From: an uncultured Candidatus Saccharibacteria bacterium
Lineage (GTDB): Bacteria > Patescibacteriota > Saccharimonadia > Saccharimonadales > Saccharimonadaceae
Length of the DNA stretch: 38,754 bases
Direction of reading: 5' to 3'
Assembly (NCBI GenBank): GCA_949480205.1
Contig: CASXXK010000008.1
Coordinates: 1-38,754, forward strand
The position numbers were made by a program, and so were the translations under genes. Shown piece by piece: positions 2,289-13,025 of this stretch. Below the pieces are notes generated by a model. The model was not told where the DNA came from. It worked only from the letters and a program-made list of their open reading frames with translations, and did not search any database. Position 1 is the stretch's first letter. Each line of letters begins with the position of its first letter.

Positions 2289-4040
2289 CTATAATGAAGA
2301 GATAGGGTCCTTCTTGCTGGCGAGGTATTTTTGGATGATTGGCATATGGCTAAGGTAATTTTTCCACATGTTGAGATAGTTACCGCGAGCTTTGCTAGCA
2401 TCGCCGTAACCGTCGGCCTGTCTGGCATATTCGTAGAGCGGAGTGCCATAGTCACCGATGCTTGCCCATTCGGTGCGTAGCCCAGTAGAACTGATTTTAG
2501 CATGATTGATTTCGACATTCCCAATCCAGGCTTGACCAGCAGTGTCACGATTAAAAGTGTATTTTAGAGATTTGTCGGCGGATGGAAAATGTTCGACTTG
2601 AATTTGCCCGTAGAGTCCAGTGTTGGTGACATAGGAATTTTCGGAGTTTTGGAAGTTAGGGGCATTGGGGCCAGTAAGATCGAGAGTTTGTGGCGGAACT
2701 TTAGTAAAACTGACAGTACCAAGGTTAAAAGAGGCTGAGGGTGAGACTTCTTGATAATGATTGCCGCGTAGGGTGTGCTGATTGACATAACTCCGATACT
2801 CGTCTTTGGAATTATAGCGTTTGGCGGTGCCAGCAAAGTAGAAGGCGGCATTTACTGGGTTGACTTCAACTGGTGGGCGATTATTAGAAATAAGCTCAAG
2901 AGCATATTGGGTTTCGCTGGGGAGGTTCAGGCTCTCTTCATTATAACCTTTGCCAAACCATTCAATTAGTTTATTATTTTTGGTGTCAGAAACGTAATCC
3001 GGGAGGAGGCGCCAGATGCCTTGCGAATTGCTACGATAGTACGAACAAACTTTGGTGCCATTCTCGGTTTTGATATATGCGGTGACGGCGGCATGATCTT
3101 GAACTTGGTATGGGTCAGAAAGATTGACTTCAGCGTTCTGAAGCGTGAATTTATAGTTAGGAGCGAGACCAGCTTGTTCTAGGCTGGCGGGCGTAAGTTG
3201 ATAGGCTTGTCCTTGATAGAAAAAGTCATCACCGTCGATTTGGCTAGATTTAAGAATGTCGGCTTTTTCTTGAGCGCTTATAGGTTGAAGCTCAATTGGC
3301 TTAGAAATTGTTTCTGGTTGAGTTGGGGCTTGATTACTGGTATAGCTATGCAATACTTGCGTACGAGCGTCTTTTTCGGCGGCAGCCTTGTTGGCTTTGG
3401 TTTGGAGAGACTCCATAGAATTATAATACTCTAAACGTTTACCGTAGAACTTTTGTTTAAAATTCGCCATAGCTTCTTGGTACTCAGCGTATTTTTGTGG
3501 CGAATTGTGCTCGCGGATATCATTGAGCAAGTTCTCTTCGGCACTCTTGAGTTCATATGGTGTAGGAAAACGGTTAAGCGCGTTGCGAAGATCGTAAATC
3601 GAGGCAGATTGCCAATAATCAAAACCCGTACCACTGAGGTAAGTGAGAATGCGTAACTCGTGTTTGTCTTGCATGGAATCGATAGTATTTTCTGGAGAGC
3701 GATCAACTGGCGTCGCAATGTTGCTAATAAGATTTGATTTTTGTTGGTCGGTAATGGTGCCGTTGGCTAAATAGTCATAAACGATTTGACGTTCGTACTC
3801 AGAAATATTTGCATCGGGTTTGCTAAGTCCATTATTTCCGCGCAAGAAGGCGTCAATGATTTTACGTTCCTGACGCTCTTGACTTTGGAGATGTGCATTG
3901 GTTTGATCGGCTTCAGCTGAAGCGATTTTAGTTTGATTACTAAAATCGCTTGAAGACTCAAGATTCTCCCAAGGATTATTGGTTTCTGCGGATGATGGGG
4001 CGGTTTCAGTTTTGTTTCGAATGCGATTAAAAAGGCTCAT
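2289..4040 (-). CDS. Hypothetical protein, 583 residues
   Basis: I do not recognise this family. A start at 4058 is possible, but the second Met (MSLFNRIRNK) at 4040 is preferred because a -10 box TATACT lies 6 nt upstream, implying a leaderless mRNA. Residues ~1-260 are polar and helical, rich in Gln/Glu/Asn, with a coiled-coil-like stretch near residues 150-220. The remainder (~260-583) is mixed alpha/beta and rich in Tyr, Asn and Gly. No signal peptide or clear membrane helix is seen, so it is probably cytoplasmic. It lies between nusG and rplK, which are normally neighbours, and is transcribed separately. Confidence 0.75.
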   Translation of the reverse strand: MSLFNRIRNKTETAPSSAETNNPWENLESSSDFSNQTKIASAEADQTNAHLQSQERQERKIIDAFLRGNNGLSKPDANISEYERQIVYDYLANGTITDQQKSNLISNIATPVDRSPENTIDSMQDKHELRILTYLSGTGFDYWQSASIYDLRNALNRFPTPYELKSAEENLLNDIREHNSPQKYAEYQEAMANFKQKFYGKRLEYYNSMESLQTKANKAAAEKDARTQVLHSYTSNQAPTQPETISKPIELQPISAQEKADILKSSQIDGDDFFYQGQAYQLTPASLEQAGLAPNYKFTLQNAEVNLSDPYQVQDHAAVTAYIKTENGTKVCSYYRSNSQGIWRLLPDYVSDTKNNKLIEWFGKGYNEESLNLPSETQYALELISNNRPPVEVNPVNAAFYFAGTAKRYNSKDEYRSYVNQHTLRGNHYQEVSPSASFNLGTVSFTKVPPQTLDLTGPNAPNFQNSENSYVTNTGLYGQIQVEHFPSADKSLKYTFNRDTAGQAWIGNVEINHAKISSTGLRTEWASIGDYGTPLYEYARQADGYGDASKARGNYLNMWKNYLSHMPIIQKYLASKKDPISSL

Positions 4041-4046
4041 GGTAAA

Positions 4047-4052
4047 AGTATA
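4047..4052 (-). promoter_or_regulatory. -10 box for a probable leaderless gene
   Basis: TATACT on the minus strand, with an upstream TG, ends 6 nt before the ATG at 4040, and no Shine-Dalgarno sequence is present. The predicted start of transcription falls on the start codon. No good -35 box is visible. Confidence 0.5.
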
Positions 4053-4056
4053 ACAC

Positions 4057-4087
4057 AAAAAAGCGAACTTTCTCGGTCCGCTTTTTT
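4057..4087 (-). terminator. nusG terminator
   Basis: A 12-bp stem (4057-4068 with 4076-4087; one G-U on the minus strand) flanked by A6 and T6 runs, 10 nt after the nusG stop. It reads as a terminator mainly on the minus strand. Confidence 0.75.
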
Positions 4088-4096
4088 CTAAAAACT

Positions 4097-4645
4097 TTAT
4101 TGCAACTGTTTGACTTGCAAAGCGTCAAGTTCGACAGGTGTTTCGCGACCGAACATTGAGACCATGACTTTGAGCTTGCCTTTTTGGGTGTCGATTTCGG
4201 AAATCGTGCCTTCGAAGCCTTTGAATGGACCATCAATGATAGAGACAACTTCGTTGATTTCGTAATTGACGGAATATTTGGGATCTTCTACGCCCATGCG
4301 CTTTTTGATTTTGGCAATTTCTTTTTCGGAAACTGGAGTTGGCTGGGTGCCATTGCCGATGAAGCCGGTGACGCCAGGAGTGTTGCGTACGATGTACCAA
4401 GTTTCGTCCGACAAACACATTTCGACCAAGACGTAGCCTTGGAAAATTTTGCGGTCAACAACTTTGCGCTTGCCATTTTTGATTTCGATGCGCTTTTCTT
4501 TTGGTACGATGGCGTCGAAAATTTTGCCTTCAAATTCGGGGCTGCCGACGCGTTGATTGATACTTTCGGCGACCTTGTCTTCGTAGCCGCTGTAGGTACT
4601 AATAGTGTACCAAGCGCGGGTGTCGTCATAACGGTTTACTGCCAT
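4097..4645 (-). CDS. nusG: Transcription termination/antitermination factor NusG
   Basis: NusG binds RNA polymerase as a processivity factor and links it to Rho or the ribosome. The 182-residue length is normal. The NGN domain begins ARAWYTI-like (RAWYTISTYSGYEDKV) and contains YVLVEM. The C-terminal KOW domain carries GPFKGFEGTISEID near residue 138. It follows secE with a 19-nt gap and has an AAGGAG Shine-Dalgarno sequence, the classical secE-nusG pair. Confidence 0.96.
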   Translation of the reverse strand: MAVNRYDDTRAWYTISTYSGYEDKVAESINQRVGSPEFEGKIFDAIVPKEKRIEIKNGKRKVVDRKIFQGYVLVEMCLSDETWYIVRNTPGVTGFIGNGTQPTPVSEKEIAKIKKRMGVEDPKYSVNYEINEVVSIIDGPFKGFEGTISEIDTQKGKLKVMVSMFGRETPVELDALQVKQLQ

Positions 4646-5139: not shown

Positions 5140-6873
5140 TCAATAGTATTGTAGCATGAAAAACGCAAATTTGGAAGACTTTTTCGAAAAAGTGTGATAC
5201 AATAGCTTTGCACTGGGGATTCGCCAAGTGGTAAGGCACTGGGTTCTGGTCCCAGCATTCGGGGGTTCGAATCCCTCATCCCCAGCCATAAAAGACTTTT
5301 CAGATTTTGGAAGGTCTTTTTTGGTGGTTCTACCCCTATAAAATGGGCTAATTTGTGGGGTGCGAACTTTTTTGTCGGAAGTTACTAAAAATCCACCAGG
5401 AAATAGCAAAAGTTCGCACCTCTTAGTTTCTTCTAAAGTAAGATCAAAGAAATGATCTGCTAAATTATCGACCAAACTGAGAGCAAACTCCATAAAGTCC
5501 TTTTTATCGACATCTACTTTATTTTGAAGGTTATTCAGCCTAGCTACAACATCGACTAGGGCTTCTTTTGTGCGTTTAATGGCAGCTTCTACTTCAGAGC
5601 GAATTTCTGGATCGCTAATTTGGCATAAAGTTCGCACCTGCTCATTTTTCGTAGCTTCCAAAGACGATTTTCTTTGTGTAAGTTGATAGATTTCCGTTTG
5701 ACGCATACGCTCTTCATCTTTCCAGACCAGCTCAAGCTGCTTTAAGATACGTTTTCTACCATCATCTGATAGATCGAATTGGCTAATCTGTTCCTGAATA
5801 GCAGCGTGAGCCTCCTCTCGTGAAATACGTTTGTGACATCTACGGCAACCATAGACATCATATTGGTTGCCTTTGCCGTTACTGCTAACGTAGCCGCAGA
5901 ACTTACTGTGGTCGTGGATACCAATATTACCAGCAGCAATTTCAGCCTTGTGGCATTCCTCGCACAGCATAATGCAATTCAGTGGATAATGAGTATTGCC
6001 GCTTTTTCTGGGTGCAGCGTGACATTTTTTGCGATTACTAATAATAGCCACGATACGCTCGTGCTGTTCTTTCGTAATGAGCGGCTGATGAAGGGCATTA
6101 GGATTAAAGACCTTAACTTGCTTTTTGCCTTCAACGCAACCAGCATAATAAGGGTCATTCAATACCTTCTTCCACTTATCCATTTTATAAAGAGCGTGAC
6201 CACCACACACGAAATAGTCGCTTTGGTTTAGCTCTTTTAATCCATCAGATACTGAAAGAAAACCATCAGCGATACGAGCCATAATGTCGCTTAGAGTAGC
6301 GGCAAGATCATAGTCGTCATTTGGAACATGCATCCCAGGCGTAAATGTGCGTTTATAGCCAAACTTTGGCGGATATGGCGTTCTGCCAGCCTTGAGCGAC
6401 CCCTCTGCATTAGCAAGGCCCTTTCTAGTGCGTTCCTCATTGCTAACTTCAGCCTCAAAAAGTTTCGTAATACGTCGAAACTTGGTCATAGCATCACACC
6501 CGTTTAAACTCTCATCATCCGTATAGTAGATTTCCACGCCAAGCTTTTTGAACTCGATCTCAAAATAAACAGCTTCTTGAATCGATCGCATAAAACGGTC
6601 AGGCGATGATACCAAGAGATACTTGACCTTTTTGTGCTTTCTACAATAGTCCATCATTTCTTGGATATCCTTACGATGAACATTCTTGCCGCACTTGCTT
6701 GACGCACTACCGCTCCATTGACCGTCATCGGGGATATATACGCCAAGCCTATTGGCAGCCGCTAAGATAGATTTCGCCTGACTGTCTAGACTATGATTTT
6801 CTTTTTGTTCAGGGGTGGATACCCTGCAAGCAGTAATCGCCCAAGGTTGGGTGAGTGGGTTATATTTTGCCAT
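5140..6873 (-). CDS. Large serine recombinase (integrase), integrated-state form
   Basis: It catalyses site-specific integration and excision through a phosphoserine link. From the ATG at 6873 (GAGAGG ribosome-binding site) it has 577 residues. The resolvase domain (1-~150) carries ACRVSTPEQ with the presumed catalytic Ser, and SPDRFMRS. The recombinase domain follows (~180-300, GYKRTF...LNDPYYAG). A zinc ribbon has CIMLCEEC and YGCRRCHK, then comes a coiled coil (~400-475). The shared body ends at GDEG, residue 534. The last 43 residues are tRNA-Gln antisense plus host DNA, not a natural C-terminus. In the circular element the frame would instead run into the 77 codons at 10273-10043. A further in-frame start at 6960 is less likely. 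Confidence 0.92.
   Translation of the reverse strand: MAKYNPLTQPWAITACRVSTPEQKENHSLDSQAKSILAAANRLGVYIPDDGQWSGSASSKCGKNVHRKDIQEMMDYCRKHKKVKYLLVSSPDRFMRSIQEAVYFEIEFKKLGVEIYYTDDESLNGCDAMTKFRRITKLFEAEVSNEERTRKGLANAEGSLKAGRTPYPPKFGYKRTFTPGMHVPNDDYDLAATLSDIMARIADGFLSVSDGLKELNQSDYFVCGGHALYKMDKWKKVLNDPYYAGCVEGKKQVKVFNPNALHQPLITKEQHERIVAIISNRKKCHAAPRKSGNTHYPLNCIMLCEECHKAEIAAGNIGIHDHSKFCGYVSSNGKGNQYDVYGCRRCHKRISREEAHAAIQEQISQFDLSDDGRKRILKQLELVWKDEERMRQTEIYQLTQRKSSLEATKNEQVRTLCQISDPEIRSEVEAAIKRTKEALVDVVARLNNLQNKVDVDKKDFMEFALSLVDNLADHFFDLTLEETKRCELLLFPGGFLVTSDKKVRTPQISPFYRGRTTKKDLPKSEKSFMAGDEGFEPPNAGTRTQCLTTWRIPSAKLLYHTFSKKSSKFAFFMLQYY
5198..5203 (+). promoter_or_regulatory. tRNA-Gln -10 box
   Basis: TGATACAAT (extended -10, hexamer TACAAT) ends 10 nt before the mature tRNA 5' end. 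No convincing -35 box is seen. Confidence 0.5.
5214..5288 (+). tRNA. tRNA-Gln (anticodon CUG)
   Basis: The cloverleaf can be drawn by eye. Acceptor TGGGGAT (5214-5220) pairs with ATCCCCA (5278-5284). The anticodon stem CTGGG/CCCAG (5239-5243, 5251-5255) holds loop TTCTGGT with anticodon CTG at 5246-5248. The T stem is GGGGG/CCCTC with loop TTCGAAT (5266-5272). The discriminator is G5285 and CCA is encoded (5286-5288). The 3' 16 nt are duplicated at 10275-10290, marking this as the integration site of the element that follows. The tRNA sequence stays intact. Confidence 0.95.
5273..5288 (+). repeat. attL core (16-bp direct repeat)
   Basis: CCCTCATCCCCAGCCA is identical to 10275-10290. The bases on either side differ, so the match is exactly 16 bp. 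It forms the 3' T-stem strand, 3' acceptor strand, discriminator and CCA of the tRNA. Confidence 0.85.
5290..5322 (+). terminator. Element-borne terminator downstream of tRNA-Gln
   Basis: AAAAGAC (5290-5296) pairs with GTCTTTT (5314-5320), with extra pairs inside, followed by T. It starts 2 nt after the tRNA CCA and lies antisense within the recombinase gene. It would replace the tRNA terminator displaced to 10291. Confidence 0.6.
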
Positions 6874-6881
6874 ATTACCTC

Positions 6882-6953
6882 TCGTGAATACGATTGTGGA
6901 TTGTCGGGTAAGGCTCGCGAAAAACCTATTACAATCCACAGTCCTACTCACGA
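6882..6953. promoter_or_regulatory. Nested dyad upstream of the recombinase
   Basis: TGTGGATTGT (6895-6904) and ACAATCCACA (6931-6940) form a perfect 10-bp inverted repeat. TCGTGA (6882-6887) and TCACGA (6948-6953) form an outer 6-bp pair, each 7 nt away from the inner arm. It lies in the recombinase leader. It could be an operator for a dimeric repressor or an RNA stem masking the ribosome-binding site; the symmetry is seen, the function inferred. Confidence 0.55.
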
Positions 6954-6987
6954 AGACCATTAGATAATATTTCGCAAATTTTACCCT

Positions 6988-6993
6988 ATTATA
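6988..6993 (-). promoter_or_regulatory. Recombinase -10 box
   Basis: TATAAT on the minus strand, ~115 nt before the recombinase ATG. It would place the nested dyad in the transcript. No clear -35 box is seen. Confidence 0.4.
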
Positions 6994-7005
6994 TAAAATA
7001 GTTAG

Positions 7006-7128
7006 TTATTTAGATCGCTTTCTTTTCCATACTTGATATGCAAAAAGGGCGACATTACGTGCATGTTCATCAAGCCGTTCCGAAGAGAGTTCTCCCGAAA
7101 TACTTGATGGCATATTCTGCAATGGCAT
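7006..7128 (-). CDS. Possible small basic protein, probably decayed
   Basis: A 40-codon frame ending LFAYQVWKRKRSK, with no good ribosome-binding site of its own. A better start signal (AAAGG, then ATGATG at 7144) opens another frame that stops after ~24 codons. A frameshift near 7100 would join the two into one ~50-residue protein. Same strand as the recombinase and directly upstream of its promoter. Function unknown. Confidence 0.3.
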   Translation of the reverse strand: MPLQNMPSSISGELSSERLDEHARNVALFAYQVWKRKRSK

Positions 7129-7140
7129 AAGAATTAGTCA

Positions 7141-7290
7141 TCATTTCTTCTGCCTTTCATAAGACCAGCTCGCAGTGAGTTCTGGATTTTCAGGTGTCAG
7201 TTTTGCCCCGTCCGCCAGTCCTCCTAGATTTGGTTTTCGCGAGCTGTAGTTATATCCATCATAGACTAACAGGCGAAGTTTGTAAAGAAC
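7141..7290 (-). pseudogene. Start-less coding remnant
   Basis: On the minus strand a frame without stops ends ...LADGAKLTPENPELTASW and a TGA at 7141-7143, overlapping the next ATGATG as coupled genes do. No ATG, GTG or TTG start is found before the upstream stop near 7434, and the promoter of the opposite-strand RNA crosses it. It looks like the tail of a broken gene. The left edge is exact; the right edge is approximate. Confidence 0.3.
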
Positions 7291-7292
7291 TA

Positions 7293-7321
7293 TTAAAAGG
7301 TGGCACGTTTTATGATATAAT
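7293..7321 (+). promoter_or_regulatory. Promoter of the structured RNA / membrane-protein operon
   Basis: Extended -10 TGATATAAT (hexamer 7316-7321) with a weak -35 TTAAAA 17 nt upstream. The predicted start (~7328) coincides with the first base of the long stem that opens the structured RNA. Confidence 0.65.
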
Positions 7322-7326
7322 AAAAT

Positions 7327-7462
7327 TGTTCACATTCTTCGATAAATCCAAAACTAGCGTAAGCCAGTTTTAGGCGAGAAAAGCAGCCATTGTGCTAGCA
7401 TCTAAGCCTAAAACTTGGATAGCGAAGAGTGTGAACAGCCTGCAACGATGGCTGCTTTTTAT
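7327..7462 (+). ncRNA. Structured, apparently pseudoknotted RNA or leader
   Basis: Four pairings can be drawn. S1: 7327-7341 with 7423-7437 (15 bp, one G-U). S1b: ATCCAA/TTGGAT, 7346-7351 with 7415-7420. S3: GTTTTAGGC/GCCTAAAAC, 7367-7375 with 7406-7414. S2: 7379-7393 with 7445-7459 (15 bp, one G-U). S2's 5' arm lies in the loop of S3 and its 3' arm lies beyond S1, so S2 with S1 makes a pseudoknot or a switch. S2 ends in five T, like a terminator. A promoter starts at S1. It may be an independent ~135-nt RNA or an attenuating leader of the operon at 7510. I do not recognise a known RNA class. Confidence 0.7.
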
Positions 7463-7509
7463 GTTGCCATTGAATGGGGTAAAAGTCAACTTAATTTAAG
7501 GACAATGAT

Positions 7510-8625
7510 ATGGCACAAGGTCATAAGGTGGGTAGTTCTCCTGCCGCCACCAAAACAAAATTAAATAAATCGCCAATAAAACAAAGCGATATGAATAAGT
7601 CGAAGCCCACCAAGAAGCAGATCGGGATTGTTTGCGGAATTATAGCGGTTTTGGTGGCGGTTCTCGTAGTAGCACTAGTTTTCATCCTCAACCGCAACCA
7701 GCCACAGGCAGACACGCAGGATGATGCAGAAACTACCCAGACCGAACCAGAGATCGATTATGAACAAAAGATTACTAGTGAGGATGGTGGTGAATTCAAA
7801 GCAGAATACCAACAAGGCTCAGAAACCAACTTCACGGCTCGCTTTTCCGACTTGAAATGCGAAGATAACTGTAAAAACGTTAGCGAAGTCAAGGTTGGCG
7901 ATAAAGTTCTTAAGCAAGGCGAAGACTATGAGATTAAAAGCGGCAGTATTATAGTTATACTAAAAGCCACTTTTCTAGATAGCCTGCAGGTTGGCAAGTT
8001 TGACCTTGTGATAGCGGTTAAAGACGGAGATGCAATTAGCCTTTACGGAGTAAAGTTCACTATCAAGCCAGTTCCGACTTGTGGCGAAGATGAGATGTTG
8101 GAAAAAGGCGAATGTGTCGAGAAGCCAGAGGAGCAGCCAGATCAGAATCAGACCAACAATAAAACTCCGAACACCAGCCAGTCGGCTAAACCTAGTCAGC
8201 CATCACAGCCAAGCCAGCCATCTACTCCAAGCAAACCACAAGCCCAGATAGAGTGCGAAAATAAAACAGCTCCGACAGGTTTTTCTCAAGTTTACTGGTA
8301 TAGTGACGCAGATAGACAGCAAAACGGCTATACGACTGATATGGTCGTAGGCATTTCTACCTGGTCGATAGATAATAGCGTAGTAAAAATGCATTGGGTG
8401 AATGGAACTTGCCGACCAGCCATTGCTCAAAACATGAGCAATGGAAGCGTGACAGGTGCTGGTTTAATGCCAACCACCCTAGAGAACCTACGAACCTTGC
8501 CATATCCTGCTTACCAAGCCGCTTACCAAAATCAAGGCAAGAACATGGTCGTTTGGTATTGGGACAGCCAATCGAACTACGCGATCGAGTATATGCCCAA
8601 TGTCGGGGCAGTTTGGAGTTATTAA
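7510..8625 (+). CDS. Membrane-anchored, proline-rich extracellular protein
   Basis: 371 residues: a basic N-terminus, one membrane segment (about residues 38-60), then an extracellular region. After the helix come acidic sequence, a beta-rich module to ~200, a cysteine pair motif (CGEDEMLEKGEC), a Ser/Gln/Pro linker made of SQP repeats (~230-250) and a Trp/Tyr-rich C-terminal module (~255-371) with two Cys. This is the build of a surface adhesin or effector with a stalk. AAGGACA precedes the ATG. It heads a three-gene operon. The first ~15 codons include a stretch that looks like a tRNA 3' end (7531-7552). No enzyme motif recognised. Confidence 0.8.
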   Translation: MAQGHKVGSSPAATKTKLNKSPIKQSDMNKSKPTKKQIGIVCGIIAVLVAVLVVALVFILNRNQPQADTQDDAETTQTEPEIDYEQKITSEDGGEFKAEYQQGSETNFTARFSDLKCEDNCKNVSEVKVGDKVLKQGEDYEIKSGSIIVILKATFLDSLQVGKFDLVIAVKDGDAISLYGVKFTIKPVPTCGEDEMLEKGECVEKPEEQPDQNQTNNKTPNTSQSAKPSQPSQPSQPSTPSKPQAQIECENKTAPTGFSQVYWYSDADRQQNGYTTDMVVGISTWSIDNSVVKMHWVNGTCRPAIAQNMSNGSVTGAGLMPTTLENLRTLPYPAYQAAYQNQGKNMVVWYWDSQSNYAIEYMPNVGAVWSY

Positions 8626-8658
8626 GTTTAAGGTAAAAAATAAGGAGATATAAAAGAA

Positions 8659-9102
8659 ATGACAGTTCAACCAAAGAACCGTAATTATATTCTAATTGGA
8701 GTAATTGTAATATTGGCACTTATTGCCGTTATTGGCATAGTGGTATTATTTGGTAATCGTTACGAGGATGATGTAGAAAATAAAAAACAAGATATAAGCG
8801 ATATGCTGGTTCTACAATCAGCCATTACGGATTACCAGATGTCTAATAATGGTAAATTCCCAACGGATGCCGCCAAACTCAAGAGCGATTATATTCGTGG
8901 CTCTTTCCCATATCCAATTTCTTTGACGAACCTAAACGAGGGCGAAACCGAAACATTGCCAACTACTAGCAACACGATGTATGTTATTAAGAACGCAGCT
9001 TGTGACAATGACGGCAAACAGGCAATCTATAATAGCACTTCTCGTAGATATGTGATTATGTATCACCCAGAGGGAGTGGCGTCAGCGATTTGTATCGAAT
9101 AG
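8659..9102 (+). CDS. Pilin-like single-pass membrane protein
   Basis: 147 residues with a hydrophobic N-terminal helix (about 10-30), then an amphipathic helical stretch and LQSAITDYQMSNNGKFPTD, the layout of type IV pilin and pseudopilin globular domains. The classical prepilin peptidase site (Gly before Phe, Glu at +5) is not present, so processing is doubtful. There are two Cys in the C-terminal half (one near the end), possibly a disulfide. An AAGGAGAT ribosome-binding site lies 11 nt before the ATG. Second gene of the operon. Confidence 0.75.
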   Translation: MTVQPKNRNYILIGVIVILALIAVIGIVVLFGNRYEDDVENKKQDISDMLVLQSAITDYQMSNNGKFPTDAAKLKSDYIRGSFPYPISLTNLNEGETETLPTTSNTMYVIKNAACDNDGKQAIYNSTSRRYVIMYHPEGVASAICIE

Positions 9103-9117
9103 TAGCAGAGGTGAAAT

Positions 9118-9396
9118 ATGAATAATACACCAGAACAGCCAAAAAACTCCAATACCGTCTTATGGTTAATATTAGTAGTTCTAATAATTTTCGTAGTTTT
9201 TGTAATCATTAATATTATGGAAGACGATAAAACTCGCACAAAACAGCCAGTATATGTTCCCAGTAGTTCGTCCACCAAGACAGACTGGGAGGCTTACTGC
9301 CGTGATATGTTCCCAGATAGCCCTTCGGCTCGTCGAGGATGCGTGAATGGAGCAACAGCAACCGACAACCTAATGGACGGCAAATACAACAGATGA
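9118..9396 (+). CDS. Small membrane protein with paired cysteines
   Basis: 92 residues: a short polar N-terminus, one strongly hydrophobic helix (~14-34), a charged linker and a C-terminal motif DWEAYCRDMFPDSPSARRGC with two Cys, likely exported and disulfide-bonded. GAGGTG ribosome-binding site; 15-nt gap from the preceding gene. Its stop abuts the stop of the convergent helix-turn-helix gene with no base between. Function unknown. Confidence 0.7.
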   Translation: MNNTPEQPKNSNTVLWLILVVLIIFVVFVIINIMEDDKTRTKQPVYVPSSSSTKTDWEAYCRDMFPDSPSARRGCVNGATATDNLMDGKYNR

Positions 9397-9909
9397 CTAA
9401 ACAAAAGCACCAATAAACAATTCCTCGTCAGGCTGATGCCTTTGCTTCCATACCGCCATAGAACACGAGTGTAAAACGAAGCCGTATGAACCTTCGTCAA
9501 TCCACTCAATCGTGGCGGTTTCTTCATTGAGATAGGGTGAGGTGATAACATACGGAATAGGGCGTTTTCTAATAGGTAAGCCCATCCAAGCCCTCGGAGC
9601 AGGCAGATTATGCCCCTGTGAGCCACGCAGAGCCGCTGCGTGCGGCTTGTCATAGTAATTAGGACTAATATAAGATGAACGCCGATAAAAACGGAATCCA
9701 CGCCTCCTGATACGATCGGCATTCCCCCATTGCCGAGCGGTTGCCTCTAGAAAAACCTTGTTGAATGCAGGGTCTTTGAGCCGCCATCTCATTATGGTGG
9801 TATCCGATACTCCAGCCATAGCTGCCACATCCTTTACGCAGTAGCCCTCAGCAACCAAACCAAGAATGCGATCGGTGATTTCTTTAGAAAACTTTGTCGG
9901 TCTAGCCAT
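9397..9909 (-). CDS. Helix-turn-helix protein, small-terminase/regulator-like
   Basis: 170 residues from the ATG at 9909 (MARPTKFSKE). An upstream start at 9942 is less likely because a -10 box lies 6 nt before 9909. Residues ~8-50 form a helix-turn-helix of the kind found in phage small terminase subunits and transposase N-termini (VKDVAAMAGVSDTTIMRWR). The rest is Arg/Tyr/Pro-rich and unfamiliar. At the right end of the element it is a candidate regulator or recombination directionality factor, by position only. Confidence 0.7.
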   Translation of the reverse strand: MARPTKFSKEITDRILGLVAEGYCVKDVAAMAGVSDTTIMRWRLKDPAFNKVFLEATARQWGNADRIRRRGFRFYRRSSYISPNYYDKPHAAALRGSQGHNLPAPRAWMGLPIRKRPIPYVITSPYLNEETATIEWIDEGSYGFVLHSCSMAVWKQRHQPDEELFIGAFV

Positions 9910-9915
9910 AATCCT

Positions 9916-9921
9916 ATTATA
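9916..9921 (-). promoter_or_regulatory. -10 box of the helix-turn-helix gene
   Basis: TATAAT on the minus strand, 6 nt before the ATG at 9909. Another probable leaderless arrangement, although AGGA in the gap is Shine-Dalgarno-like. Confidence 0.5.
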
Positions 9922-10039
9922 GGCTACCAACAGAGAAAACATTTTACTACCAGCCAGAAAACTAAATTCATCGACAAAACCTGCAAAACTGCAAAACTCT
10001 ACAGTTCAGCACGAATAACGCTTCGAGGCTAGGCTATAT

Positions 10040-10290
10040 TCAGGCAGAGGTATTAGTTTTTACTTCACACTTGTCTATATTAGAATCCTTAATAGTATTA
10101 CTTACTAATGACTTTTTGTTTTGATAAGATCTATAATCGCTACCTAATTCGTCAAACCACCTCTGTAGTTCAACAGGAAATTCTTTCCTAATAGCCTGGG
10201 CATAACTATCGGAAGATGCAGTAGATGCTTCGTCATCATCTCCCCGTTGAACCCTATTTTTGTGCGAACTTTTGCCCTCATCCCCAGCCA
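10040..10290 (-). pseudogene. Displaced native 3' end of the recombinase gene
   Basis: Reading the minus strand from the attR core in the recombinase frame (AGDEG), the frame stays open for 77 codons after the core and stops at a TGA (10040-10042). The peptide is hydrophilic and helical, containing YAQAIRKEFPVELQRWFDEL. If attL and attR recombine, these codons rejoin codon 534 of the recombinase, giving a 611-residue enzyme. There is no start or ribosome-binding site here, so it is silent while the element is integrated. Confidence 0.75.
10275..10290 (+). repeat. attR core (16-bp direct repeat)
   Basis: CCCTCATCCCCAGCCA, identical to the tRNA-Gln 3' end at 5273-5288. It is preceded directly by the motif GTGCGAACTTTTGC (10262-10275). 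Confidence 0.85.
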
Positions 10291-10349: not shown

Positions 10350-12329
10350 CTATGTCATCATTAGGTATGAAATTTTCCACGTATTTTCTATTTTGGAGAA
10401 TCCTATTGCTATACATTTATCTATATCCGTCCATTCATCCTTATGCTTTTGGCTTAGTTTGGCCATGTAATATGTAAGCATATTTTGATTGTTACATGCT
10501 ACGCAGGCTAGTCCAATTTTTTTGGTGTTTCTATATGTTTGGGTTTTTACGCTGAAATCAGAAATTGGCCTCCCAAGCTCTATTTGGCATTTCATTCTTT
10601 TAATATTATTAATGATATCCTTTGCTAGATCGCTGGGAAAATAGTGCATTGCAAATATGATATCAGTTTTTTCTGGGCTATTGCAGTCAATATGACCGAT
10701 TTCATTTAGTAGATCCATATATTCAGACGGTAAACGTCTTTCGATTGAGCTAGAATAACATATGTCATTGTGTAGAAAAAGTTTATTATAATAATACTCT
10801 TTTCTAAGCACTGACTCTAAATCGTCGCTCAATGCCAAAAAATCTGTATTGTTTGGGATTAATAAGTCATGCGTTAAGTAGAATGATAGGTAATTGATTT
10901 CATTATTGGTACCTAAATTTTCGTAATCTGAAGTACGTCTTTCTAAATAAAATAGAAAGTCGTACGGATTGCGTAGGTAATCCGTGGTCATTTCTAAATC
11001 GAAGATACTCATTTGTATCGGCGGGAAGTGTTCTTGTATTTTTAATTGGCATCTTTCAGCATGTTTATTTCCGGGATAATAGTCGCCGTTTACGCAAATG
11101 ATATATGCTCGATTGATTTTGCGGGGCTTGATAATGGTGTTATTTTGAAGTAGTTTGTAACTTTCGGTTTGTAGTATTTTTGCGGCTTTGACACCTTGTT
11201 CATATGGGTCTTGTATAGACTTTTGAAAATCCTGTTTAATAGTTTCTGGGTTACCGCTTTTTGATGCTGCAGTAAGTTTCTTGTTTTTATTTTGGATAAT
11301 TATTGCCGTTGAGTCGCAGTATGCCAGGACATCTATATCTGTAACTCGTCGTTTGCCTTGATATAGAATGACTGATTCGTATGTGTTATTTTTACCAAAG
11401 ATTTTTTCTATATATTCTCTTGTCGTGTCTTCTAGAGCTTTACCGATATTTTGGCTGAAAATTGGTCTATAAGAATCGTTTTTCATTGCTGCATAGTATG
11501 GGAACAAGAAAATAGCTTTTGCAAGAAGTATGGGCGATGATACGAAATATCCATTATTAGTTTTTATTAATGGTCTTTCGTATATAATGTTTTGTGATGA
11601 CGGATCGGAAAAATTGCAATATTGTTCTTGTTTGGCATAACCAAACATATCAAAGAATATGTTAACTTCGTCCGGCGTTATTGGAGCACCATTGTCTGAC
11701 GTAATGGCTGGTATTTCTGTTGGTTGCACTAAAAAGAGATTAATGGCTTTTGTGGGGTCAGTAAGATCTAGTTGTGTTGTAATGCCTTGACTAGCTATGT
11801 AACACGAATGGTTTATTTTTGTTAAGATGGCCATGAATATCTGTGCTATTGCATAAGTATCAAATGACTTGTTTTGTTTTAGCCATTCCATATCGTATCT
11901 ATATAGTTTTTCTATATGTTCGATGAATTGAAGGTCATAGGCACCAGATTCGGAGTAGAAAATTGATTCTATGTTTATTTCTGGGTTATCAATTAAATTT
12001 TTATTTCTTATGTCGGGTATATAAGTGTAGTGCAGCTTTTGGAGTAATTTCTTTATCTGTTTTTTAACCTTAATAATTTCTCTGGTATCGATTTTAGCTA
12101 TAGCGTTTGACGTGTAATTTTTATTTTGTATCATTAAACCGATGAGAAAGGCGATTTCATTAAAGGTTGTTTCATCTTGGGGATTAATTTGCGTAACATC
12201 ATTGTTTGATATATCCATGAACGATTCTTCTTGCATAATGCTAGACAGCACAATCAAAAAACCGTCCGATTGGGCGATTTTGGTCAAATCGTTAATGATC
12301 TTTGAACGTGTTTTATTGGACGTTTGCAT
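10350..12329 (-). CDS. Putative nuclease-like protein, 659 residues
   Basis: Mostly helical and unfamiliar. Near residues 328-350 it has a pattern DIDVLAYCDSTAIIIQNKNK, like the D...(E/Q)xK core of restriction-endonuclease-fold proteins, with Gln in place of the usual acidic residue. No signal peptide or membrane helix. It is clearly AT-richer than the ribosomal genes, suggesting horizontal acquisition. The ATG at 12329 is 7 nt after a -10 box (TATACT). It lies beside a NERD gene on the same strand, so a defence or DNA-processing role is possible. It lies outside the integrated element. Confidence 0.75.
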   Translation of the reverse strand: MQTSNKTRSKIINDLTKIAQSDGFLIVLSSIMQEESFMDISNNDVTQINPQDETTFNEIAFLIGLMIQNKNYTSNAIAKIDTREIIKVKKQIKKLLQKLHYTYIPDIRNKNLIDNPEINIESIFYSESGAYDLQFIEHIEKLYRYDMEWLKQNKSFDTYAIAQIFMAILTKINHSCYIASQGITTQLDLTDPTKAINLFLVQPTEIPAITSDNGAPITPDEVNIFFDMFGYAKQEQYCNFSDPSSQNIIYERPLIKTNNGYFVSSPILLAKAIFLFPYYAAMKNDSYRPIFSQNIGKALEDTTREYIEKIFGKNNTYESVILYQGKRRVTDIDVLAYCDSTAIIIQNKNKKLTAASKSGNPETIKQDFQKSIQDPYEQGVKAAKILQTESYKLLQNNTIIKPRKINRAYIICVNGDYYPGNKHAERCQLKIQEHFPPIQMSIFDLEMTTDYLRNPYDFLFYLERRTSDYENLGTNNEINYLSFYLTHDLLIPNNTDFLALSDDLESVLRKEYYYNKLFLHNDICYSSSIERRLPSEYMDLLNEIGHIDCNSPEKTDIIFAMHYFPSDLAKDIINNIKRMKCQIELGRPISDFSVKTQTYRNTKKIGLACVACNNQNMLTYYMAKLSQKHKDEWTDIDKCIAIGFSKIENTWKISYLMMT

Positions 12330-12365: not shown

Positions 12366-13025
12366 TTAGGCTTTATAATCTTCGATTTCAGAGATGTGTT
12401 CGTCACGAATGATAGTGGTAGGATTAACGCGGCTGGCGTCGAGTTTGTTGCGAATATCAACGACCTGTTGAGGCGAGAATGGTGGACGGCGGCTGGTAAT
12501 ATTATCTAATGTTGCGCTCAGTTCGGCCTGGGTGCAAACGTAGCAATCAGGTGGTAAATTATCGATGACTTTGAGGGTAACATCGCCGCCAAAAACGATT
12601 ACAGAATACAGTGGTACGATAGTGCCGAAAATACTGGCAATAGCGGAAACATGGGAAGCATTTTGGCGGACGGGACTATAAAATTGATGTTTGTTTTTGC
12701 CGTAAGCGGAAACCTGAGTCCAATGGATGCGGTCGCCATGACCAAAAATCCAGCCAAGATGACCTTTAGACTCAAAGACGAAGATTCCCCGTTCGTCAAC
12801 GGCGAGACAATCAATTTGTAGAAGTTCGGCGTCGGAGACGACGTGATTTTTGATGCGTTGATCATTGGGCTTGGAATCGGGTTTGGGAAAATAACAATCG
12901 ACGAGGATGTTTGCCGGGGTGAAAAGTTTTTGCAGACTATAAACTAGACGAGTTTCGGCAGGAGTGAGTTTGACGGGATAGGGTGAAGTGATTTTGGTGC
13001 CGGTAATTTTATATGGTTGTTCCAT
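12366..13025 (-). CDS. NERD-domain protein
   Basis: 219 residues. The NERD (nuclease-related) domain spans about residues 20-130: LVYSLQKLF, then ELLQIDCLAVDERGIFVFESKGHLGWIFG with the conserved D...ExK residues, then the W of IHWTQ. NERD domains belong to the restriction-endonuclease-like fold and are often paired with helicases, kinases or DNA-binding domains. Here the domain is nearly alone, with only a short helical C-terminus. It precedes the 659-residue nuclease-like gene with a 36-nt gap, possibly one unit. Confidence 0.85.
   Translation of the reverse strand: MEQPYKITGTKITSPYPVKLTPAETRLVYSLQKLFTPANILVDCYFPKPDSKPNDQRIKNHVVSDAELLQIDCLAVDERGIFVFESKGHLGWIFGHGDRIHWTQVSAYGKNKHQFYSPVRQNASHVSAIASIFGTIVPLYSVIVFGGDVTLKVIDNLPPDCYVCTQAELSATLDNITSRRPPFSPQQVVDIRNKLDASRVNPTTIIRDEHISEIEDYKA

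Follow-up and report, generated by a model that had tools for sequence, protein, structure and literature searches.

A multicopy, pseudoknotted leader RNA of Saccharimonadia and its possible role in transcription attenuation

An RNA locus within an integrative element

The window (the whole 38,754-nt stretch analysed here) contains a 5.0-kb serine-recombinase element (positions 5273-10290), located in tRNA-Gln(CTG) and bounded by 16-bp attachment repeats (Table 1). The reading frame of the recombinase ends within the tRNA gene, on the opposite strand. The corresponding empty site is found in a relative (G377:C8:4128-4332), where the joined flanks match unbroken (96% over query positions 1-206, with the junction at 162/163). 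Besides the recombinase, the element carries the RNA described below, three small genes for membrane or secreted proteins that accompany it, and a protein resembling the small subunit of a phage terminase; no other phage structural gene was seen in the window element. In L005 (G268:C4; same genus, 69%), the one full-length relative returned by BLAST, the RNA is followed by a homologue of the second downstream gene of the window (29% identity) and, beyond it, the terminase-small-like HTH gene (46%). This shared order indicates that part of the operon moves with the RNA, and the terminase-like protein kept beside the RNA in each element points to a phage satellite or remnant. The RNA thus lies in a mobile element, as first annotated, yet the class is not tied to it: other copies are found in ordinary chromosomal leaders, and the family is multicopy and genus- to class-wide.

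Table 1. Features of the RNA locus and of the surrounding element (window coordinates)
Feature	Position	Strand	Remarks
Attachment repeat, left	5273-5288	+	16 bp, CCCTCATCCCCAGCCA; at 3' end of tRNA-Gln
Large serine recombinase	5140-6960	-	3' end overlaps tRNA-Gln
Promoter (predicted)	7293-7321	+	-35-like TTAAAA 7293-7298 (weak); extended -10 TGaTATAAT 7313-7321
P1, 5' strand	7327-7341	+	Begins at predicted +1; covariation on alignment A6
P2, nested	7346-7351 / 7415-7420	+	Different sequence but still paired in L005
P3, nested	7368-7375 / 7406-7413	+	Arm A in its loop; also in L005
Arm A (pseudoknot 5' arm)	7379-7393	+	AAAAGCAGCCAUUGU; A:S complementarity in 108/108 copies
P1, 3' strand	7423-7437	+	Covariation on A6; fully compensated in homologue L005/L025
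Hairpin T (alternative; putative terminator)	7436-7454	+	B 7436-7440 (CAGCC) with 7450-7454 (GGCUG), loop 9 nt
Arm S (pseudoknot 3' arm)	7445-7459	+	ACGAUGGCUGCUUUU; complementarity and covariation
U-tract (U5)	7456-7460	+	U-run of at least 4 in 102/108 copies
Arm Q (third S partner, downstream)	7466-7472	+	GCCAUUG with CGAUGGC 7446-7452
First downstream gene	7510-8625	+	371-aa membrane-anchored protein, CBM_X2 domain; SD-like AAGGA 7498-7502
Second gene	8659-9102	+	147-aa pilin-like membrane protein; homologue directly 3' of RNA in L005
Third gene	9118-9396	+	92-aa small membrane protein
HTH protein like phage terminase small subunit	9397-9942	-	Synteny marker; 46% identical in L005 (69-596)
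Attachment repeat, right	10275-10290	+	16 bp, CCCTCATCCCCAGCCA

Other features of the region are recorded here for reference. A 23-nt inverted repeat (87%; 6882-6904 / 6931-6953) lies at the start of the recombinase gene and is a possible operator or recombination site, and a perfect 13-nt inverted repeat (7544-7556 / 7648-7660; CCGCCACCAAAAC / GTTTTGGTGGCGG) lies inside the beginning of the first cargo gene. On the minus strand, two neighbouring genes (10353-12329 and 12369-13025) encode proteins with the nuclease-related NERD domain, the first starting just beyond the right repeat. An L1/L11/NusG/SecE ribosomal cluster includes extra genes at 1244-1651 (135 aa) and 2289-4058 (minus strand; 589 aa); a protein resembling the 135-aa one was seen by eye near a copy in another genome, G181 (L123, 1948-2380 relative to the U-tract). 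Near the copy L024, a terminase-large-like C-terminal fragment (4180-4518) was likewise noticed by eye.

The RNA of the window is almost certainly structured and pseudoknotted. The position of the extended -10 motif predicts transcription initiation at about 7327-7328, at the first base of the outer stem, where the initial annotation had put it; the outer stem itself, P1, was also placed correctly and is perfect (15/15 bp), and the two stems nested within it, P2 and P3, are present. The second long stem of that annotation, formed by arms A and S, lies at the expected place and interlocks with P1, but is complementary at 14 rather than all of its 15 positions. Moreover, the stretch of five T is real, but the stem does not end before it: arm S takes in four of the T residues, and stem and T-run overlap. 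The nested fold of the window RNA has an energy of -54 kcal/mol (z = -5.9 against dinucleotide shuffles).

Distribution and covariation of the structure

Apart from L005, BLAST returned many short chance matches; with a single true homologue recovered, sequence search alone is insufficient to find the class. In L005, all 15 P1 pairs are retained though most letters differ from the window, and the pseudoknot arms have changed jointly (GCAGUCACGUA / UACGUGGCUGC). A first covariance model was built from these two sequences using P1 and P3 only, with the pseudoknot left out; it found 45 places in 35 of the 174 genomes of the genus, and a second model was built from 36 of the 45. The second model detected copies in at least 102 of 170 genomes of the genus, 69 of 295 of the order and 86 of 245 of the class (in searches over 40 genomes, only the top candidates of each genome were scored, so that the counts are minimum values). 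In a phylum-wide draw of 287 genomes, matches were confined to the same order; the lack of copies in about 260 other Patescibacteria genomes of this draw, outside the order, doubles as a specificity control. The class thus appears to occur only in Saccharimonadia, among the genomes searched. The carriers are uncultured Candidatus Saccharibacteria, mostly animal-gut MAGs, with as many as about 40 copies in one genome; searches of single genomes yielded 30-34 copies each in G369, G378 and G181, and seven in the window's own genome. When viral contigs of IMG/VR were searched for exact occurrences of the motif of one subfamily, there was no match, though phages may nevertheless carry copies. We found no earlier description of the class in Saccharibacteria in the literature, and regard the family as previously undescribed.

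A set of 108 distinct copies was annotated by one script. P1 is present in all of them (10-23 bp), starting at the predicted +1; it begins 3-6 nt past the -10 in 98 copies, and the extended -10 (TGn) is kept in 93. Every copy has an A:S helix of 10 bp or more, in each case with a shuffle p ≤ 0.01, and a run of at least four U follows in 102 (of the six copies lacking it, L065, L066 and L068 were inspected). Arm S is almost wholly different between subfamilies (GGCUGC, GGUCGC, GGUGCC, GUGUCC, GGUUGUCG and others); since it changes in this way, and since the pseudoknot was absent from the search models, the A:S complementarity constitutes independent evidence. For the 61 distinct S arms, complementarity to the arm's own loop has a z of 44 against shuffled loops, with values of 27.7 for the own loop and 15.7 for the loops of other copies.

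In alignment A6 (31 sequences), made without structural information, 94.1% of the cells of P1 and the pseudoknot are paired, against 79.8% after shuffling and 33-47% in slid controls. The covariation score is 0.460 against 0.190 for the shuffled alignments (0/500), and 16 pairs show changes on both sides. Absence of covariation in homologues had been named at the outset as evidence against the structure; P1 and the pseudoknot covary strongly. The recurrence of the arrangement in 108 distinct copies, with compensatory changes, is more than chance would give. Within one subfamily, only the A, S and B strands (for B, see below) approach invariance, and these strands change completely between subfamilies; no invariant core resembling a ligand pocket was noticed across subfamilies, though the non-arm positions may hold a structural pocket.

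The pairing also bears on whether the conserved entity could be DNA, as a folded single strand or a recombination site. The class was first found in a recombinase element and some copies lie at contig ends, but G-U pairs occur in 107 of the 108 pseudoknot helices (196 of 1611 pairs) and one pair is G-U in 21 of the 31 rows of A6, which argues for RNA over folded DNA. Promoter, U-tract and gene keep a fixed orientation, most copies belong to the leaders of ordinary genes, and the contig ends agree with the repetition of surface genes (see below); we give the DNA reading almost no credence.

Downstream genes, competing pairings and a proposed mechanism

For 101 of the 108 copies, the start of an ORF of 60 aa or more lies on the same strand no more than 200 nt from the U-tract (median distance, 38 nt); transcription from the RNA's promoter must therefore cross the U-tract to reach the gene. 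The RNA is, as judged from this position, the leader of the downstream gene. Two possibilities had been considered in the initial annotation, a stand-alone RNA and an attenuator of the membrane-protein operon, and the second is by far the better fit. A trans-acting sRNA of about 135 nt, ending at the U-tract, with the gene reached by read-through or merely adjacent, would agree with the sharp promoter and U-tract and with a structure that would protect both RNA ends; where a genome holds 30-40 copies, these have S and Q in common, making cross-talk possible. However, the median spacing leaves no room for a second promoter, the position of the gene is constant while its identity varies, and S would be masked by A or B in the terminated RNA. 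Independence from the downstream gene, expected of a self-contained sRNA, was not found, and we consider this reading improbable.

The downstream genes are diverse. Among 75 representative downstream proteins scanned against Pfam, PADLOC and NCBIfam, at least 11 are DNA methyltransferases (EcoRI type, five; N6_N4, four; C5, two; plus one MmeI-like match) and seven have a FISUMP/Fib_succ_major domain; helicases, a serine recombinase, oxidoreductases and many unclassified membrane proteins were also found. Judged by these genes, a retron was considered and rejected, as was a CRISPR or omega RNA. Of 33 copies looked at in G181, 28 precede members of one surface-protein family, and two of the other five are at contig ends. 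Eight intact genes of this family were first scored as having no copy; a direct search of their leaders found one in six and none in two. The family comprises secreted paralogues of 500-600 aa, with about 44 gene fragments (e.g., L115-L134) in a 0.8-Mb genome; nearly all are led by the pseudoknot RNA, and contigs tend to break at the repeated parts. That some of the surface genes might be broken was rejected, their reading frames being open. An invertible promoter, suggested by the contig ends beside copies, was also rejected; the ends fit leader and N-terminal gene sequences that are conserved and repeated.

Arm S has a second potential partner upstream. Segment B, made up of the end of the P1 3' strand and the linker, pairs with S to give a short hairpin, T, directly before the U-tract. 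The B:S complementarity has a z of 18 against shuffles (61 distinct S arms), 97.5% of the B:S cells of A6 are paired and hairpin T is at or below -5 kcal/mol in 97 of the 108 copies. Gene linkage, promoter motif, P1, A:S and B:S are conserved, covarying sequence features, and a promoter of its own, a terminator before the gene and an alternative antiterminator, as expected of an attenuator, are all present at this level. From these features we infer termination, an antiterminator role for the pseudoknot and regulation; the best explanation, which we hold to be probable, is that the leader acts as a transcription attenuator, with the A:S pseudoknot as antiterminator and B:S as the terminator against which it competes. 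Transcription would start at the first base of P1; P1 and P3 would fold first, exposing arm A in its loop. If the emerging S pairs with B, a short GC-rich hairpin would form right before the U-tract and act as an intrinsic terminator, leaving the gene OFF. If S pairs with A instead, the pseudoknot would form with P1 intact, the terminator would be blocked and polymerase would read on, turning the gene ON. Given that no invariant pocket-like core was seen across subfamilies, the signal is as likely to be a trans-acting protein or RNA, polymerase speed or stochastic switching as a small molecule.

Arm S had been taken from the start as part of a terminator, and in the model proposed here it would be one; less likely is the accompanying view that the terminator is the pseudoknot stem, as S:B makes a conventional terminator hairpin. 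The polarity could nevertheless be reversed, with A:S, closed through the pseudoknot, terminating transcription, and P1 or any occupant of A acting as antiterminator. A:S adjoins the U-tract directly, is longer and stronger than B:S (mean duplex energy of -24 kcal/mol, against -9 for hairpin T) and is universal, whereas about 10% of copies (L034, L039, L045, L047) have a weak B:S; together with the six copies lacking the U-run, this counts against attenuation as proposed, in that termination would not be universal while the pseudoknot is. In several copies, the pairing of arm A extends into the beginning of the U-tract, resembling a terminator with an A-tract. Furthermore, in almost every copy a linker of just 0-8 nt separates P1 from S, so that P1 and a full pseudoknot may be hard to combine unless P3 folds back, and A:S could then be the OFF state. 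On the other side, a terminating A:S leaves the conserved B:S pairing without an explanation, the pseudoknot stem, with its span of 50-100 nt, would need to outpace the adjacent hairpin, and L065, L066 and L068 retain A:S without a U-run. We regard reversed polarity as unlikely, and retain B:S as the putative terminator.

A third partner of S, arm Q, lies beyond the U-tract. In the attenuation model, S in the read-through mRNA could pair with Q, close to the ribosome-binding site; translation may thereby come under control as well. S:Q complementarity is enriched over the 61 distinct arms (z 8.2), but weak in any single copy (p 0.07 for the window) and individually significant (p ≤ 0.05) in just 16 of the 61. 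In the surface-protein subset it is very strong, at -20 to -28 kcal/mol, and in G181 a Q-like RUGGCACC is kept in all four unrelated sequences of the spacer between U-tract and gene. In L119, Q forms the loop of a hairpin whose 3' arm includes the SD, and in several copies the P1' and P3' strands can pair with the SD region. These pairings would suit a purely translational switch, in which an S:Q hairpin would have the U-tract as its loop and the choice between S:A and S:Q sets access to the ribosome-binding site, with no termination involved; the prevalence of the U-run and the B:S hairpin would then be hard to account for, and we see little prospect that this reading is right. As a separate observation, the P1 5' strand is repeated between the U-tract and the start codon in L027, L031, L044, L046, L064 and L067, and by eye the P3 5' strand is repeated, in a stretch including the start-codon region, in L027, L041 and L046; such repeats could pair with the 3' strands in a read-through RNA.

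To our knowledge, almost nothing is known about gene regulation in Patescibacteria. The family described here is found in front of surface-protein, DNA-methylation and mobile-element genes and, from its sequence features, probably decides whether each gene is transcribed. Surface proteins and DNA methyltransferases are often phase-variable in other bacteria. More tentatively, and with doubt outweighing confidence, the copies may form an RNA-only system, different from the riboswitches known so far, that runs the accessory and surface repertoire, with a switch of its own for each surface paralogue (30-40 per genome), for methyltransferases and for mobile cargo. The shared A, S, B and Q arms might then allow coordinated or one-at-a-time (phase-variation-like) expression through competition of A, B and Q for S, possibly with cross-talk. 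In any event, a multicopy structured-RNA class outside Rfam, in the tiny parasitic Saccharibacteria, marks surface-protein, methyltransferase and mobile genes, and so offers a sequence handle on the regulated repertoire of uncultured genomes and a possible native switch for genetic tools.

Comparison with known RNA classes

That the RNA matches no known class, as initially proposed, agrees with our Rfam searches, which gave no match to the RNA in the window or in 20 diverse members. Against the 4227 families of Rfam 15, the window gave only tRNA; at E ≤ 10, the locus gave c-di-GMP-I-UAU, with 13.7 bits against the 65.9 needed. The 20 members gave tRNAs outside the RNA and a chance match to mir-9 (32.8 of 58.6 bits).

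In type III toxin-antitoxin systems (ToxIN), which are often carried by mobile elements, a pseudoknotted RNA likewise precedes a terminator and a gene. Here, in contrast, there is one long RNA without tandem repeats and the downstream genes are not ToxN-like: no repeat array was found in the window leader and, for the 75 downstream proteins, ToxN was not among the best 25 of the 36-133 families matched in Pfam, PADLOC and NCBIfam. A type III antitoxin was rejected in view of the downstream genes. In the IncI/IncB repZ leader, a loop pairs with a downstream strand beside the gene start, and the pseudoknot activates translation after a leader peptide is read, countered by an antisense RNA; neither leader-peptide reading nor an antisense RNA was found here. 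Short AUG frames in the loop of L025 and L036 were considered as leader peptides and rejected, as by eye they are not conserved between copies. Classical leader attenuators and the T-box resemble the proposed model in that a leader transcribed from a promoter of its own contains one strand able to pair in either the terminator or the antiterminator, but here no leader peptide or conserved core was noticed and the antiterminator would be a pseudoknot; the T-box, which is in Rfam, was not matched.

In the proposed model, the RNA would also work like the ZTP/ZMP (pfl) riboswitch of the transcriptional ON type, in which a pseudoknot antiterminator impedes formation of a rho-independent terminator (PMC7337938). 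Unlike in that riboswitch, here a long P1 begins at +1, a pseudoknot of 11-16 bp reaches to a loop arm, there is no pfl core, the genes are unrelated and the distribution is Saccharimonadia only; the pfl/ZTP Rfam model matched neither the window, nor the locus, nor the 20 members. By sequence comparison, the pseudoknot and the putative terminator pairings that would oppose it are both present and conserved, and the family offers a test case of a long pseudoknot set against an intrinsic terminator.
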